Shown one piece after another: positions 7,252-17,612 of a stretch of 64,000 bases of DNA. The position numbers were made by a program, and so were the translations under genes. Under the pieces are notes generated by a model. That model had not been told where the DNA came from, ran no database searches, and was given only the letters and a program-made list of their open reading frames with translations. The stretch comes from Mesotoga infera. Its GTDB lineage: Bacteria > Thermotogota > Thermotogae > Petrotogales > Kosmotogaceae. Location: the NCBI RefSeq assembly GCF_900157305.1, contig NZ_LS974202.1, positions 2,728,001-2,792,000 of the forward strand, read 5' to 3'. Every line of letters starts with the position of its first letter. Position 1 is the stretch's first letter.

Positions 7252-10200
7252 TCAAAATCTGAATCTGAAGAAAGGCGCCCCTTTGTGAAGCCCTACGACC
7301 AGGTACCTATCTTTCAATTCCTTGATGTAGAACTTCACGGCAATAGTCTCCAACGTTTCCGCAAACGTCTTCACCTGACTTCCAAAACTGATTTTCAGAA
7401 TTATCTCAGCGGCCATACAATGGAGATCGAGATAGAGAGGTGAGATCTTACTTATTGATTCATCCCACAGGGATATATCTCCGGCATAAGTTCCTATCTC
7501 AACGAAATTCCTGCCGCCACTTCCGTCTATCCCGAAAGAGAAGCGCTTCAATATACCGGGTTTGTCGGACAGGGAGCCCATCGGGAAGTACAGATCGTTA
7601 ATATGCATCACGAAATCAATGTCATCTGTGAAGGACAGTTCCATGCTCATTCCGAACTCTTCAAACTTTCCCGTGCTGCCTCCCAGCACGATGGAGTTGT
7701 TGAACTTCACATTTGCGACTCCCAGGGAGTACGCACTGTAATTGGTGTTGGAAGCCGTTTTTGTAGCTATGAAATACTCTCCTACCGTTAAAGAAGATAT
7801 TTCGAGCTGCTTCGATTCCCAGATCGCGAAACGTGCCCTGGTTTCGGCAGCACTGAAGTATTTGGCCGGGAACTTGTATTTAGAGTCAAAAGTCGAGAAA
7901 CCAGTCGTAAAGTCAAGGAAGGCGCTCTTCCATTTGATCTCTCCGATAGTGAGGTTGTTTAACTCGACTCTGATTCTATCGTATATTTTTTTCTGCCCAG
8001 ATAGATAAGGATATCTGAACTTCAGCGCAAAGGTGGCGAAGTCTTCCAGCGTTATGGAAGAGCCGAAATTCAGGTCCTTCAACCTTCTTTCGTTATCAAC
8101 GATATTGGGAGAAGCGTCGTAAGTCCAGTCAAGAGTGAACTCTAGTTTGGTCTTTGTCTTTAACGATAGAGTCAACCTCTCCTTGTTCACGAAGTCGTCG
8201 AAGAGATCGTTAGATTGCCAATATACCTTGTTCTCGGTACTGTGAGAAAAGATATCGGACTCGAAGCTCACCGAATAGGAGGTCTCCGAAGCTTTTGAAG
8301 TTACAGGCATGAAAATGGTATCCGATTTGTGACTGAGAGTGGTACCCCAAAGGTCGAATTTTCCTTCGCTCTTCAACTCTCCTTTTCCCAGCCAGTTCAT
8401 ATCCGTAGGGCTCGCGATGAGTTCTTCATAATCCAGCTCGAGCGAGTAATCGATCTTCAGAACCTCCGTACTTACTCCTGTTATGAGTTTGCCGGGATGA
8501 TCCAGTCGCCACTCGCTCTTGAGAAAATCGTACGTGAGAACGGGATTGTACTGGATTCCTAGGTAGTACCATTCAATAGGCTTCCACATAACTTCATTCT
8601 TCAATGTTATAGGTATCTGATTCTTCGTCAGCTTGAAGTCGCTTCCCGATTCGTACTCGAATGCTATCTCGTAGGCCGGCTCAAGAATGACGTTGAGAGA
8701 AACGGGTCCCCACTCTTTTTTTAGCAGTTCGAAATCCTTATAGACTCTGAGTTTCTTTCCTTCTATCTTGAAAGAGCCGTCGTATCTGGATTCGAAGTAA
8801 AACTTCAGTTCAACCGTAATAAAGTCTTTGTAGAGAAGGTCGAGGGGATCTATCCAGAAAACTTTATCTTTGTTCTTTTCGTGTTGAGAATCATAATCCA
8901 GGGCGTATCTGCCGTTTATTTTAAGCTTTTCATCGTCAGTCACGAAGGTCAGATAGTTCTTTCCAATCCCTTTATTATCTGCTGGCATAGTCATTTTCAA
9001 CTGTGTTGTCGATGCGTCGAAAGTGCCTTTCAGATCTCCTCCAATTTTTAGATTTCCCATCGTAAAAAGATAGGTGTTGACTTCCAGAATGAAATCCTCC
9101 ATTTTAGCCGGATCGAAAAGTTCGGTGAAAGTGGCTGCCGCGGAGGCCAGCGAGAAATTCAACGACTTAACTGAGAAATCCGCATCGAAGAGTTCCCCCT
9201 CGGTTTGGACTGCCGACGCCTTGGTTCTGAGGGAGTACAGGATCTTCTTATTTATATATCTTTGTCCGAAGAGACCGCTGATGTCGAATTCTCTGGTTTT
9301 GAACTTGAAAAAGCCCGTATCGAAGCCTTCTTCAGTTGGAATGGTCAGTTTCTGGAGGTTAACCATCCAAAGCGCCTTGTCATCGAGACGGGCGTAAGCG
9401 CCAAAAACATCGAGTTCTATATCCCACTCTTCGGGCGATAGAAACTGAACATATCCAAGAGTCAACTCAGTGGCGTTCATGGTTTGCTTGATCGCGAAGG
9501 GATCCATCTGGGTCACTTTCCTGGAGGTAATGGTTTCGCCGAGGTTCAGACCCGTGAAAGGCGTTTGCAATTCTTTTAGCGAAGGCCCTGTTATATATAA
9601 AGCTCCACCCTGAACACTTATCCATTCCAGTTTGGGCTTTATCAGCGCGTATCCGCCGTAACTGGTCTGCTTCTCCTGTCCGAACTGCCCGAAAAGTTCG
9701 AGATCTCCAAAGGGAGTATAAAGAGCGGCCTTAGCGGTGAAGGCATCTTCCGTCGAAAGCCAGTTCCTGTACCACGACCCCTGTAAAAGCAGCCAGTCCA
9801 GTTCAAGATATCTCAAGGTTATTCTGGTTTTGGCATCTACAATTCCGCTTAGATCAACATCGAATGGTCTTCTGTCGGGATTGTCCAGAGGAAAATAGTA
9901 GTAGGGAAGATAAAACACCGGCAGGTCGCCGATGTACATTATCATGTTCTGTACCGACATCCCCCTTCCAGGTGTGACGACCGCGTAAGAAACCCTGAAC
10001 TTGTAATGTGGGTGAGCTCTGTCGCACGTGGTTATGTAACCATCTGTGACGTTCATGGTAGGAGAGGCCTCTATGGTGGATTGAATGTAGCTTCCATAGA
10101 CATAAAAAGGCACTTTCGATCCATCACTGGAGGTATCTCCTCTCACCGCGGGTACTTCTATTTCTGTTCTAGTGTATATCTCCATACTTTCCAGCTTTTC

Positions 10201-11604
10201 ATTTGTTAGATCGAGTATAAGTCTTTCCGAGTTGATGGTCGTTTCACTACTGACCATGGTTACTTTACCCCAGAAAGATATTGATATTGGATTTCCGTTG
10301 GAGGTCAGGACGGAAGCGTTGGAAGCATCAATGGTGGCTGTAAGAGTTTCACTGGAGTAATCGACCCTCACGCCATCCTGGAGGAGTATCTCATTTCCCA
10401 TTTGCGATCCCAGAATGCTTCCGCCAACTATCCTCACGTTCGCTCCGATAAGAGTTCCCGGTACAATGATCGCCAGAAGTATCACAGAGATTCTCAATAG
10501 CCTCGTAAGCATTTCTGAGAGTCTGTAACTCGCTTTGGTATCTATGAGCGAGTACACAATAACTCCAACGATCGCGAAAACTATATTCGGAATCCAGGGT
10601 GCAAGTGTGGGGTTTATGAGGTTTTCCTTGCCCATTCCACTCAGCCAGGCACCCGAACCCTGGTAGATGACAACCAGTAAGAATGTGATTATTACCGACC
10701 AGGCTTTAGATTGAAGATTGAACATTAATGATACGGGCACACCAAGGAGAACTATTACGAGTGGGGCAACAGACATAGAGTACTTCTCTTGCAAAGCCAC
10801 TTCCAACGAGGATGTATCTATGCCGGTGTTCTTGAAAGCCTTTATGTCCTGTCTCAACTCGGCGCTCGTTTTCTCTTTTGGTGCTTTGAAGCTGGCCAGA
10901 TAACGTTCAATGTCTTGATCTATCTCGAACTCGGCGGTATTGAACTGCATCTCGGCCCCCAGGAAACCCGAAGAATCTACCTGGTAGATCCTGACATCTT
11001 TCAAGGTCCATTTTTTCGGAGAGATGACCGCAGAAGTGGCCGTTGTAAGAGTTACTTCAGATCTCGTTACTTCGTATATTGAAACTCCCTTCAACTCCTT
11101 GGTTTCAGGATCTATTCTTCGAACGTGTATCATCCGCCCCTGATTGTCCTGCATGAATACATTTTCTTTCAGTGTCACTTCGGGCTGTCGATAAACGAAC
11201 CTCGCCATAGCCTCAGTTGCCTTGGAGGAGGCGTTTGGAACAAGATAATCGTTGAGCAAATAGGCAACTCCGCTGAACACGACTCCGAGAATCAAAAAGG
11301 GTATTACGAGTTTCTTGAGGGATATACCATGAGTCTGAAGAGCTATGAGTTCGTTGTCCGAGCGCATTCTGGAAAGGACCCAGAATATTCCCAGAAGCAC
11401 ACCAACCGGAATGCCCATGACGATGAACTCTGGGAGATTGTAGTATATGAGGAGAAAGAGCTTGTCTATCCCTACCTTGTATCGGATTATCATATCGGAA
11501 AGGTAGTACAGAAGTTCAAGACTGACAAACACTATGAAACCACCCAGACCGATGAAGAAAGAACCGAGGGTCTGATAGCCTATATACTTTATGAGCGTAC
11601 CCAA
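7252..11604 (-). CDS. LptF/LptG-type permease fused to OstA/LptD-like outer-membrane domain
   Basis: One continuous frame of 1450 codons. Residues 1-356 are a YjgP/YjgQ (LptF/LptG) permease: about three membrane helices (10-35, 60-77, 98-118), a periplasmic domain (~120-270), then three more helices (276-295, 301-322, 335-354). Residues 366-390 are a seventh hydrophobic segment preceded by arginines and followed by LIGANV, resembling a signal peptide. Residues ~390-500 resemble an OstA/LptA repeat domain. Residues ~520-590 show the LptD core (GYITTCDRAHPHYKF, PVFYLPYYYFPLDNPDRRPF). The remaining ~850 residues are rich in beta-strand-like segments and end in FFRFRF, a C-terminal aromatic typical of outer-membrane barrels. 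It probably moves lipid or glycolipid to the outer envelope (toga). Start TTG 11604 has GGGAGGCGAG upstream. The second Lpt permease and ATPase are not in this window. Confidence 0.85.
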   Translation of the reverse strand: MGTLIKYIGYQTLGSFFIGLGGFIVFVSLELLYYLSDMIIRYKVGIDKLFLLIYYNLPEFIVMGIPVGVLLGIFWVLSRMRSDNELIALQTHGISLKKLVIPFLILGVVFSGVAYLLNDYLVPNASSKATEAMARFVYRQPEVTLKENVFMQDNQGRMIHVRRIDPETKELKGVSIYEVTRSEVTLTTATSAVISPKKWTLKDVRIYQVDSSGFLGAEMQFNTAEFEIDQDIERYLASFKAPKEKTSAELRQDIKAFKNTGIDTSSLEVALQEKYSMSVAPLVIVLLGVPVSLMFNLQSKAWSVIITFLLVVIYQGSGAWLSGMGKENLINPTLAPWIPNIVFAIVGVIVYSLIDTKASYRLSEMLTRLLRISVILLAIIVPGTLIGANVRIVGGSILGSQMGNEILLQDGVRVDYSSETLTATIDASNASVLTSNGNPISISFWGKVTMVSSETTINSERLILDLTNEKLESMEIYTRTEIEVPAVRGDTSSDGSKVPFYVYGSYIQSTIEASPTMNVTDGYITTCDRAHPHYKFRVSYAVVTPGRGMSVQNMIMYIGDLPVFYLPYYYFPLDNPDRRPFDVDLSGIVDAKTRITLRYLELDWLLLQGSWYRNWLSTEDAFTAKAALYTPFGDLELFGQFGQEKQTSYGGYALIKPKLEWISVQGGALYITGPSLKELQTPFTGLNLGETITSRKVTQMDPFAIKQTMNATELTLGYVQFLSPEEWDIELDVFGAYARLDDKALWMVNLQKLTIPTEEGFDTGFFKFKTREFDISGLFGQRYINKKILYSLRTKASAVQTEGELFDADFSVKSLNFSLASAAATFTELFDPAKMEDFILEVNTYLFTMGNLKIGGDLKGTFDASTTQLKMTMPADNKGIGKNYLTFVTDDEKLKINGRYALDYDSQHEKNKDKVFWIDPLDLLYKDFITVELKFYFESRYDGSFKIEGKKLRVYKDFELLKKEWGPVSLNVILEPAYEIAFEYESGSDFKLTKNQIPITLKNEVMWKPIEWYYLGIQYNPVLTYDFLKSEWRLDHPGKLITGVSTEVLKIDYSLELDYEELIASPTDMNWLGKGELKSEGKFDLWGTTLSHKSDTIFMPVTSKASETSYSVSFESDIFSHSTENKVYWQSNDLFDDFVNKERLTLSLKTKTKLEFTLDWTYDASPNIVDNERRLKDLNFGSSITLEDFATFALKFRYPYLSGQKKIYDRIRVELNNLTIGEIKWKSAFLDFTTGFSTFDSKYKFPAKYFSAAETRARFAIWESKQLEISSLTVGEYFIATKTASNTNYSAYSLGVANVKFNNSIVLGGSTGKFEEFGMSMELSFTDDIDFVMHINDLYFPMGSLSDKPGILKRFSFGIDGSGGRNFVEIGTYAGDISLWDESISKISPLYLDLHCMAAEIILKISFGSQVKTFAETLETIAVKFYIKELKDRYLVVGLHKGAPFFRFRF

Positions 11605-11621
11605 AAAACTCGCCTCCCTGT

Positions 11622-12311
11622 TCAGTAGGCTTTGAAATCAACGGGCTGAAAAATATCGTTTATACAGCGATAATGCTTTCCTATATCGATATAAACGGCC
11701 GCCTCCATGAGCTCGGTGCAAAGGTCAGCTATTTCCTCGAGATAGCAGAATACCCTCAAGAGATCTACGGCTCTGGACGTTATCGAAGGAGATTGTTCCA
11801 TGTTGCTTAATAGATCGCTGCGAACTCCTTCGAGAAGGCTATCGATGTTCGAATCGTTCCGGCAAAGTCTCTCGGCTTCTAAAAGCGAAGGATCGACTAG
11901 ATTATCGATGGAACCCTTAAGCATCAGGGAGACCCCGTCGAACATGGTTCGTAGCTTCTCGTAATAACCGATCGGCGGCTTCTTTATTAGAACCATCGCA
12001 AGTTCGCATATAGAGACGAATTTGTCCCCGATTCTCTCGAGCGTTTTTACTATACTCATGGTCATAGTCAAAAACCTCAGGTCCTTTCCCGTCGGTGTCA
12101 GGATTCCCGTAAGGCTTATTATTGTCTTTTGCAGTTCGATCTGATAATGATCGATGACGGAATCGGAATAGAGGACATCTCTTGCCTGATGTTCGTTGCG
12201 CTCAAGCATCGCCACGGAGCTTTTATTGCAAATATTCTGAATATAACGAGCCATCTTGAGTATATCCGAACGCAACAAGGCTATTCTTTCAAACCCAACC
12301 TTAGATATCAT
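11622..12311 (-). CDS. PhoU-domain protein
   Basis: A 229-residue all-helical protein resembling PhoU, with two related halves. Characteristic acidic metal-binding segments are visible as LERIGDKFVSICE in the first half and LEEIADLCTELMEAAVYID in the second. PhoU proteins restrain phosphate uptake and PhoR/PhoB signalling, but no pst genes occur here, so the role may differ (for example a PhoU-like partner of another transporter). The start overlaps the end of nadK by 11 bases, showing co-transcription in the long operon. The family call is good; the function is open. Confidence 0.78.
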   Translation of the reverse strand: MISKVGFERIALLRSDILKMARYIQNICNKSSVAMLERNEHQARDVLYSDSVIDHYQIELQKTIISLTGILTPTGKDLRFLTMTMSIVKTLERIGDKFVSICELAMVLIKKPPIGYYEKLRTMFDGVSLMLKGSIDNLVDPSLLEAERLCRNDSNIDSLLEGVRSDLLSNMEQSPSITSRAVDLLRVFCYLEEIADLCTELMEAAVYIDIGKHYRCINDIFQPVDFKAY

Positions 12312-15869: not shown

Positions 15870-17612
15870 TCAAGGTATCGGTCCAGCGATCAACACGTAG
15901 ATAGCCACTCCAAGTCCAGCGAGTCCACTGATAACCGAGAAGATCAACCAGGGTTGCAGCTTCTTCTGCAGCGTCTCCACATCGGACTTGCTTGCCGCAT
16001 CGACCGTCGCTTTGTTTATTTCCGCGACCCTGTCCGAGAGATTGGTTATAACGGGCTGGGTTTCGAGGTCGCTGGTTTTGAGATACCTATCGAGATTGGT
16101 GACGGTTGCATTCAACCTGGACTCGAGTGTATCGGCCCTGGTTTTCAGTGTCTTGATATCGCTCTCATTCTTACCGAGCTGAGTGTTGACGGTATCAAGG
16201 CTAAGAGCGATCTTCGAAAGGTCGGCATCAATCGAAACTTTAAGCAGGTTGTTGGCTTCGTTCATTCTCTTCTCAAGATCGGCAATGTTCGCTTGAGTTG
16301 CCGAAAGATTCATAGCCTGCTGGTCGGTTAGGGCGTTGAACTTGCTGTTCAACGCGGTGAGATCTGTCCTGAGAGATGTTACAAGACTCAACGAATTCTT
16401 CAGTGAAGAGAGATCGTTTTCGTGTAAAGTCACTATCTCGTTGACCGCGTTCACACTTCTCTGCAAATTTCCGATGTCACTCTTGATTATGCCTGTTTCC
16501 GAATTGAAATCGCTTCTCAAAGCCGCGAGACTGTTGGCAAGCGATGCGCTGTCTTCCTTTACCTTCGCCAGTTCGTCAATTCCAGCGTAGAGATTCAGGT
16601 TAGCCTTGAGATCGGTCTTGGTGACAAAGTTCTGAGTATCGCCAACTTTGACGTAATCGGATGCGATCGTGTTTACCCTTGCAGACAGATCGTCGAGTTT
16701 CTTGGTGGCGTCGGCAGGGAGTTTGATATTCGCAATTTGAGTTTCAAGAGAAGTAATGGCGTTTTGCAGATCCCTGATAGAAGAAGTGTTTCCCGACATT
16801 GTATTGATGGTATCTTTTAGAGAGGCTATCTCTATAGCGTTTGTGGATGCCCTGTTCGTCAGAGTACTTATCTTCGCATCGAACTCGTTCACTTCAGTCG
16901 AAAGGGTCTTTACGCTGGTTTCCAGGTTCGATATGGCTCTGTCGTGCGTCGAGAAACTCATTTGAATGGCGCTCAAACTGCTGCTCAGAGTATCAACTCT
17001 TCTAACGGCGTCGTTAACTTTTGTCTCCATAACCGAAAGATTAGCCATGCTGTTTTGCATATTCTGAATGTCTAGGGCGAGAGTATCGATTTTCTTGGTC
17101 GTCAGAGAAAGGTCCTCCACGAATTTCATGACCTGGTTTCTGAGCGAATCGATCGTGCTCTGCGTCACTGTGGTCGCGGTCGTTCCGACGCCCACGGAGT
17201 TCACCCTGCTTTCCAGGGCGGTCAATCTCAGCTGCAAGTCGAGTGTATCGATCAACTTTCCACTGGTATCGGTTAGTGCCAGCTCTAAAGCTTCCAGTCG
17301 CGACCTTAGACCGGCGTCCGATATGCTTGACTGCGGAATCGTTCCCTGTTTAGCGAAATTCAACTCAATATAGTCTATGGTTCTTTGTAGCATTACTGCT
17401 GTCTGATATCTGGTCAGCGGATCGTTACCGTTGAAGTACAGTTTGCCGTCGGCACCCTGAACACCATTCAATATACCGAGGTTAGTCAGATTGATGACTG
17501 CATTGTAAGCCCAGTGATTCTGAGCAACATCAACATAATTGACAGGCGCCGCCACTGAAGAGATTACCAGACCGAAAATAAGCAGTGAGGCAAGCAAAAG
17601 ACTCTTTTTCAA
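15870..17612 (-). CDS. Omp-alpha-like outer-envelope rod protein: SLH domain, coiled coil, C-terminal anchor
   Basis: Surface protein of 580 residues. Residues 1-22 are a signal peptide ending in VAAP. Residues ~23-75 form a single S-layer homology domain (FVDVAQNHWAY-like start as YVDVAQNHWAYNAVINLTNLG, later DPLTRYQTAVML). Residues ~80-550 are almost entirely heptad-patterned coiled coil rich in S, T, N, D, L and V. Residues ~554-577 are a hydrophobic helix that would anchor the C-terminus. This order matches Omp-alpha of Thermotoga maritima, the rod-shaped spacer under the toga. It starts at TTG 17612 behind GGGGAGGTG. Monocistronic, ending at the hairpin downstream. Confidence 0.85.
   Translation of the reverse strand: MKKSLLLASLLIFGLVISSVAAPVNYVDVAQNHWAYNAVINLTNLGILNGVQGADGKLYFNGNDPLTRYQTAVMLQRTIDYIELNFAKQGTIPQSSISDAGLRSRLEALELALTDTSGKLIDTLDLQLRLTALESRVNSVGVGTTATTVTQSTIDSLRNQVMKFVEDLSLTTKKIDTLALDIQNMQNSMANLSVMETKVNDAVRRVDTLSSSLSAIQMSFSTHDRAISNLETSVKTLSTEVNEFDAKISTLTNRASTNAIEIASLKDTINTMSGNTSSIRDLQNAITSLETQIANIKLPADATKKLDDLSARVNTIASDYVKVGDTQNFVTKTDLKANLNLYAGIDELAKVKEDSASLANSLAALRSDFNSETGIIKSDIGNLQRSVNAVNEIVTLHENDLSSLKNSLSLVTSLRTDLTALNSKFNALTDQQAMNLSATQANIADLEKRMNEANNLLKVSIDADLSKIALSLDTVNTQLGKNESDIKTLKTRADTLESRLNATVTNLDRYLKTSDLETQPVITNLSDRVAEINKATVDAASKSDVETLQKKLQPWLIFSVISGLAGLGVAIYVLIAGPIP

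Follow-up and report, generated by a model that had tools for sequence, protein, structure and literature searches.

An LptF/LptG-type permease fused to LptD in Thermotogota, probably made as a cleavable polyprotein

Introduction

In bacteria other than those considered here, the inner-membrane and outer-membrane parts of the Lpt system come from separate genes. The diderm Firmicutes encode one LptF/G, LptB, and two OstA proteins, with LptD not found and no fusion (PMC5007114). In Borrelia burgdorferi, a diderm without LPS, the parts of an Lpt-like system, for which a glycolipid cargo was proposed, are encoded separately and include an LptF/G pair (PMC10353723); the same paper notes, with reference to Putker et al. 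2015, that T. maritima has Lpt orthologues. A single lipid-transport chain with domains in both membranes is known from Veillonella parvula, where a long helical stretch of MlaD crosses the periplasm between an inner-membrane MCE domain and an outer-membrane barrel (PMC10665443). Envelope-gene surveys report the Thermotogota as lacking LptD and almost every other Lpt part (PMC8871954), a picture that has entered the debate about one versus two membranes in the first bacteria.

The gene described here lies in a 64,000-nucleotide stretch of the Mesotoga infera genome (the window) and encodes an LptF/LptG-type permease and LptD as one chain. The system resembles that of the diderm Firmicutes in its single LptF/G and that of B. 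burgdorferi in the presence of Lpt parts in an LPS-less diderm; as in MlaD, one chain combines an outer-membrane barrel with a part in the inner membrane, but the families differ, and a short jellyroll is found where MlaD has long helices. Compared with known LptF/LptG proteins (PF03739), the domain is full length and has the same fold and an LptB partner, but it is encoded by one gene and fused to LptD. The LptD part has the LptA-like jellyroll, the TTC and PVFYLPYY core motifs, the large barrel, and the hydrophobic or aromatic C-terminus of known LptD, as well as two conserved cysteines at positions corresponding to those of the interdomain pair in E. coli, though with fewer cysteines in total. 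Unlike known LptD, it has no N-terminal signal peptide of its own and follows a permease, and LptE (PF04390) was detected in none of the 103 Thermotogota genomes, where a diverged LptE could escape detection. No description of the fusion was found in the open literature searched, though an earlier mention may exist.

Results

The reading frame occupies positions 7252-11604, as the earlier note had it, and sits on the minus strand, to which all coordinates below refer. It encodes 1450 residues without interruption between a TTG start codon (11602-11604) and a stop codon (7252-7254), and the plus strand of the same interval is riddled with stops when translated. The TTG is preceded at a distance of 9 nt by a Shine-Dalgarno-like GGAGG (11613-11617), and the homologue of a relative begins with M at the residue matching the TTG-encoded start.

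Both sequence and fold comparisons identify the N-terminal third of the protein as an LptF/LptG-type ABC permease and the remainder as LptD, the two being linked by a seventh hydrophobic segment. The permease domain (residues 6-351, positions 10552-11589) contains six TM helices, the third and fourth of which are separated by a periplasmic jellyroll; it matches positions 1-351 of the 353 in Pfam LptF_LptG (PF03739; E 8.1e-81, 272 bits), and the full-chain AlphaFold2 model of a homologue matches LptF/LptG with Z of 25-26. The NCBIfam equivalog models for LptF and LptG give 154 and 170 bits, under their cut-offs of 230 and 240, and by these models the permease is a member of the LptF/G family that is neither LptF nor LptG. 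This is the single PF03739 match in the window's genome, and nearly all Thermotogota likewise have one, with no F/G pair. A change of R212 in E. coli LptF bypasses LptC (PMC9972910); no residue of the Thermotogota proteins aligns with R212, the loop being shorter, so the alignment allows no conclusion on LptC bypass. The earlier note, with its six permease helices, overlooked the seventh hydrophobic segment, which is the key feature.

The region following the permease begins with an LptA/OstA-like jellyroll and LptD core (residues ~389-570, positions 9895-10440), which contains TTCDRAHPHYKF and PVFYLPYYYF and is assigned by profile matches to LptA and LptD in the PDB and by the homologue's fold. 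The rest is predicted to fold into an LptD-like outer-membrane β-barrel (residues ~571-1450, positions 7255-9894, with an approximate inner boundary) that terminates in a β-signal-like ...FFRFRF (7255-7284); in intact homologues the last residue is also aromatic or hydrophobic (F, M, or L). Taken alone, the window protein is matched by the NCBIfam LptD model at residues 524-576 (E 7e-4, below the curated full-length cut-off) and by PDB LptD 8h1r (E 0.0017), and is not matched by Pfam OstA/LptD_N. A family profile built from the post-permease part of 32 sequences and searched against the PDB retrieved LptA (E 7e-7) and LptD (7omm, 1.7e-6; 8h1r, 5.7e-6), the matches covering profile positions 39-237; LptD models match 15 of the 32 relatives at best. 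When AlphaFold2 models were compared by Foldseek, LptD and LptG/LptF were both top matches of one homologue's full chain, and a solved LptD was the top match of window fragment 352-1450 (E 5e-15). In the homologue model, residues 385-1055 match LptD with Z of ~17-21, and the jellyroll matches LptA with Z of 14.4 and rmsd of 2.0. The domain order proposed in the earlier note (LptF/G, OstA-like jellyroll, LptD barrel) is therefore supported by profiles, with LptF_LptG matched directly and LptD/OstA through the family profile and, by Pfam OstA/LptD_N, in 12 of the 32 relatives, and by the predicted structure of the homologue's full chain, which matches both LptF/G and LptD.

The only cysteines C-terminal of the permease in the window protein are Cys527 and Cys1396. 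Cys527 (10024-10026), conserved in all 40 aligned Thermotogota sequences, aligns with Cys173 of E. coli LptD, and Cys1396 (7417-7419), conserved in 88% of the 40, is placed like Cys724/Cys725, ~55-60 residues from the C-terminus. In this alignment, cysteine positions for a putative jellyroll-to-barrel disulfide are present.

The junction between the two parts (residues 357-388, positions 10441-10536) is a putative internal signal peptide with a candidate cleavage site near A388/N389. It consists of an R/K-rich, positively charged stretch and a ~15-residue hydrophobic core followed by small residues, the seventh hydrophobic segment being at residues ~368-388. Its identity among homologues is 0.24, versus 0.45-0.81 for TM1-6, whereas its hydrophobicity is kept (KD 1.65 versus 1.3-1.95 in TM1-6), and it resembles the N-terminal signal peptides of Thermotogota LptA (VSLFAFSKTIHI versus NTQAFSSVITLD). 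Being hydrophobic yet fast-evolving, as are the LptA signal peptides of this phylum, the junction looks, on sequence grounds, like an internal signal peptide. The simple -3/-1 signal-peptidase rule, applied to 63 junctions, 20 LptA signal peptides, and TM1-6, is passed by 98% of junctions and 95% of LptA, but TM2 and TM5 pass equally often, so that the rule provides no evidence for a cleavage site at the junction. The median hydrophobic core length is 15 in junctions, 14.5 in LptA, and 19-25 in TM1-4, and fails to set the junctions apart from TM5 and TM6. In the homologue model the helix ends at residue 382 and the first strand starts at 388; the G006/G007 family has ~45 additional residues past the hydrophobic segment.

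LptF/G was found in 100 of 103 Thermotogota genomes, in at least 92 of them within a frame of at least 750 residues, and the LptD part was detected in all 103. Hence the fusion, treated in the earlier note as a feature of this particular gene, is a trait inherited throughout the phylum. Separate genes occur in two lineages: in G053, represented by a single MAG, LptF ends with ...EPLKRLLG and a stop codon and a separate LptD begins with MHLRYKSFSPVLFIISLFFIILSGTKVFSATAYI, and in G005 LptF, LptG, and LptD are three separate genes. In both, the separate LptD has an ordinary N-terminal signal peptide at the junction's place. Since G053 and G005 are nested within fused clades of the FastTree tree, the tree makes the split genes later fissions of a single ancestral fusion. 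The apparent splits in G097, G061, G030, G033, G001, and G054 are contig ends rather than fissions, and those in G040 and G093, where the fused gene seems to be frameshifted, were not counted. As the fusion was kept in nearly all genomes though splitting is tolerated, the covalent link could matter. When two permease peptides were used to scan 84,980 species genomes, the matches came essentially from Thermotogota alone; both peptides are phylum-specific, so the scan is no test of fusions in other phyla.

Among possible partners, the window's genome encodes LptB (G000:C1:407001-407699; 292 bits against the 240-bit equivalog cut-off), an LptA-like protein, Omp85, and a member of the signal peptidase I family; TamB was not found in it. 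Each genome has one secreted OstA-type protein, matched in some species by both PF03968 and PF06835. LpxC was found in none of the 103 Thermotogota genomes, in agreement with the earlier suggestion of a cargo other than LPS; the guess of a Thermotogota host in the earlier note is supported as well.

Discussion

These genes probably encode a polyprotein cleaved by signal peptidase and serving a minimal Lpt system that consists of LptB, one LptA/C-like protein, and LptF-LptD. The permease would insert with its C-terminus in the cytoplasm, like LptF, and the seventh segment would act as an internal Sec signal peptide directing the LptD part to the periplasm, with signal peptidase I cutting after it. 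The permease would then remain in the inner membrane with LptB2 as a dimer of identical copies, proposed because a single LptF/G gene was found, and LptD would be folded into the outer membrane by a BamA-like Omp85. The single LptA/LptC-like jellyroll protein, polymerized, would link the two. The cargo is presumably not LPS, because LpxC is absent; our guess is a glycolipid of the envelope or some other bulk lipid of the outer membrane.

The earlier note left the choice between a bridge and a cut chain open; we infer cleavage from the signal-peptide-like junction, the two split lineages, and the short jellyroll. It is unlikely that the chain stays uncut, in which case the seventh segment would persist as a TM helix and the protein would be a covalent bridge from inner to outer membrane, taking the place of all or part of the LptA filament. 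MlaD of V. parvula shows that a single chain can have domains in both membranes (PMC10665443), almost all of the 103 genomes retain the fusion, the hydrophobic segment is possibly membrane-spanning in length in some species, and the extra residues of the G006/G007 family could serve as a tether. However, the jellyroll begins 5-10 residues past the helix and, by the strand count of the predicted model (~12 strands x 4.8 Å), extends at most ~6 nm, so it cannot cross a periplasm in which the toga is spaced by the 45-nm Omp-α rod of T. maritima (PMC9388160); Omp-α length differs between species, and the 45-nm value is valid for T. maritima only. Moreover, the segment is unconserved in sequence, in contrast to TM1-6, the link is absent in two lineages, and the genomes still encode a separate LptA-like protein. 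Also improbable is a version of the uncut chain in which each transporter carries two covalent LptD barrels, with inner-membrane ATPase, periplasmic groove, and outer-membrane exit in one molecule, and the Thermotogota draw their membranes together locally to use it.

We give little credence to the fusion serving to keep the complex by the inner membrane, LptD being freed by another protease or acting at membrane contacts, and 1:1 synthesis being what was selected. Long retention together with tolerated fission suggests that coupled synthesis is advantageous, and the fusion yields permease and barrel at 1:1 where two permeases per LptD might be expected for a transporter with one bridge; yet nothing points to another protease, and the signal peptidase I family is present. 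Separate production of the two parts from an internal translation start 5' of the signal peptide is very doubtful and was rejected: ATG, GTG, or TTG lies between permease and segment in some sequences (ATG in 17 of 39), but a start with a Shine-Dalgarno-like sequence occurs in only two of the 39, and no start is conserved. Finally, an artefactual joining of two genes by sequencing error, raised in the earlier note, is practically ruled out, as is a chance frame, since the same unbroken frame recurs across the phylum in dozens of independent assemblies from every family, single-contig genomes included.

The "missing" LptD of Thermotogota is present, concealed behind the permease within the same gene. 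Although minimal, the Lpt machine of the phylum is complete, and it is retained in the absence of LPS, LptE, and a separate LptF/LptG pair. Together with the lack of a detected TamB in the window's genome, this suggests that Lpt may carry bulk outer-membrane lipids. The gene would be a likely case of a bacterial polyprotein from which signal peptidase would yield one inner-membrane and one outer-membrane protein, and the Thermotogota offer a direct test of Lpt cargo in the absence of LPS.

Domain composition and distribution of the fusion

The single reading frame claimed in the earlier note at window positions 7252-11604 was confirmed as one open frame of 1450 codons, located on the minus strand, with a TTG start and GGAGG at 9 nt before it, in a host genome of 2.97 Mb assembled as one contig. 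It belongs to a same-strand run of NAD kinase, PhoU-domain protein, LptF-LptD, and uracil-DNA glycosylase family genes. The order NAD kinase - PhoU - LptF/LptD, in which the PhoU-domain gene (11622-12311, minus strand) is directly upstream of the fusion, recurs in a second Thermotogota genome (locus L032), where an SLH-type protein is also encoded nearby (L032 215-1426).

The permease and LptD parts assigned in that note were recovered by Pfam, PDB, family-profile, and fold matches. Residues 6-351 form the LptF/LptG permease (Pfam E 8.1e-81; PDB LptF also matched), and the LptD part begins at about residue 389. Taken alone, the window protein has a thin similarity to LptD (E 7e-4 for a profile model and 0.0017 for PDB). 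A profile of 32 relatives made the LptD assignment firmer: across the jellyroll and the barrel start it matched PDB entries of LptA (E 7e-7) and LptD (E 1.7e-6 and 5.7e-6). Among individual relatives, the best match to an LptD or LptA model reached E 5e-11. In the AlphaFold2 model of a full-length 1071-aa homologue (pLDDT 82.9), residues 3-357 superimpose on LptG/LptF (Z up to 26.5), residues 385-1055 on LptD (Z 17-21), and residues 385-509 on LptA (rmsd 2.0; Foldseek, VIA-align); its pTM of 0.44 leaves the relative arrangement of these parts uncertain. The model of window residues 352-1450 is weaker (pLDDT 71.5), with LptD still the best fold match (E 5e-15).

After the permease, the window protein contains only two cysteines, C527 and C1396; among 40 sequences, the C527 column is always cysteine (100%) and the C1396 column is in 88%. 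C527 aligns with C173 of E. coli LptD, and C1396 lies ~55 residues before the C-terminus, a position comparable to that of C724/C725; the E. coli residues make the jellyroll-barrel disulfides.

A survey for the same fusion, which the earlier note had asked for, found it phylum-wide. Counted by hand, an LptF/G match is present in 100 of 103 Thermotogota genomes, and in at least 92 of the 103 it lies within a frame of at least 750 aa; the LptD part is present in all 103. Complete or near-complete fused genes were extracted in 39 cases from all sampled families, and approximately as many more from named records. Between families, the permease half retains 43-51% identity and the barrel half 9-16%. 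No paper on an LptF-LptD fusion was found in a non-exhaustive search of the open literature.

Partners of the fusion

The host genome encodes an LptB scoring above the equivalog cut-off, one secreted LptA-like protein, one Omp85, and one signal peptidase I family protein; no TamB was found in it. An OmpH/Skp-like gene precedes and overlaps lptB (L138 6996-8212; G000:C1 ~406995-408211), a small predicted operon that would combine an outer-membrane chaperone with the Lpt ATPase. LptE and LpxC were each found in 0 of 103 Thermotogota genomes. Hits to PF06835 (LptC) among Thermotogota land on the same LptA-like protein. On this inventory, the machine would have three genes. In another genome, G005, a 603-aa secreted protein (L140 6294-8105) that contains several LptA/OstA-like stretches but lacks a barrel-like end, encoded beside an RseP-like gene, is possibly an elongated LptA.

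In a 2026 review, LptD is described as universal among diderms (PMC13067283), and Thermotogota were surveyed in 2016 as lacking LPS capacity (PMC5007114). A Borrelia study that mentions T. maritima proposed glycolipids as the Lpt cargo in LPS-less diderms (PMC10353723).

Junction and geometry

As the LptF C-terminus is cytoplasmic, the downstream chain would have to recross the membrane to reach the periplasm. Every fusion has at this point a charged stretch (e.g., DTPFAYKIREFMSK), a ~15-residue hydrophobic run, and then small residues. The mean pairwise identity of this segment is 0.24, compared with 0.45-0.81 for TM1-6, whereas its hydrophobicity is kept, and it is similar to the N-terminal signal peptides on LptA-like proteins from the same phylum. 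The junction passes the -3/-1 rule, but TM2 and TM5 pass equally, so the rule proves nothing here. In G007 (L061) and G006 (L062), ~45 extra T/S/P/A-rich residues, absent from other families, separate the signal-like segment from the jellyroll.

In the 1071-aa model, residue 382 is the last of the helix and residue 388 the first of the jellyroll. The approximately 12 jellyroll strands at 4.8 A would span no more than 6 nm, even in the extreme case of a single stacked sheet, which is a bound only. In T. maritima, Omp-alpha, whose rod has a predicted length of 45 nm, keeps the outer membrane at a distance (PMC9388160); judging from the model, an uncut chain could not occupy both membranes at this spacing. 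The window also encodes (15870-17612, minus strand) a 580-aa protein with a signal peptide, an SLH-like start (NYVDVAQNHWAYNAVINLTNLGILNG), a long coiled coil, and a C-terminal TM helix, which looks like Omp-alpha, the periplasm-spanning toga spacer.

Most likely, the product is a polyprotein that signal peptidase cleaves at the junction. The permease part would form a homodimer with LptB2, BamA would fold the released LptD into the outer membrane, and LptA-like jellyrolls would link the two. The parts, the fusion, its distribution, and the splits are established by this analysis; the topology, the cutting, the homodimer, and the cargo are inferred.

Natural splits and evolution

In G053 (UR.bin268), the permease gene has its stop codon just past the charged stretch (...EPLKRLLG*). 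LptD is encoded by a gene of its own that begins six bases downstream with MHLRYKSFSPVLFIISLFFIILSGTKVFS, a predicted plain signal peptide. The first ten residues of this LptD have no counterpart in fused relatives, and thus the split is not a mere frameshift. In G005 (L070 5986-8319, L154 8753-11302), LptF and LptG genes lie in tandem on one contig; LptD, of 849 aa and carrying a separate signal peptide, is encoded on another. These natural splits indicate that the permease and LptD can work as separate proteins.

In the permease tree, whose rooting is uncertain with E. coli as the only outgroup, G053 is nested within a family of fused genes, and both G005 permeases cluster with fused genes of the family to which they belong (support 0.98). 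The most parsimonious scenario is a single fusion that preceded the diversification of the phylum, followed by two fissions. In G005, the ancestral fusion gene apparently came apart and its permease was duplicated, leaving a tandem LptF/LptG-like pair in which the heterodimer seems to have been re-invented.
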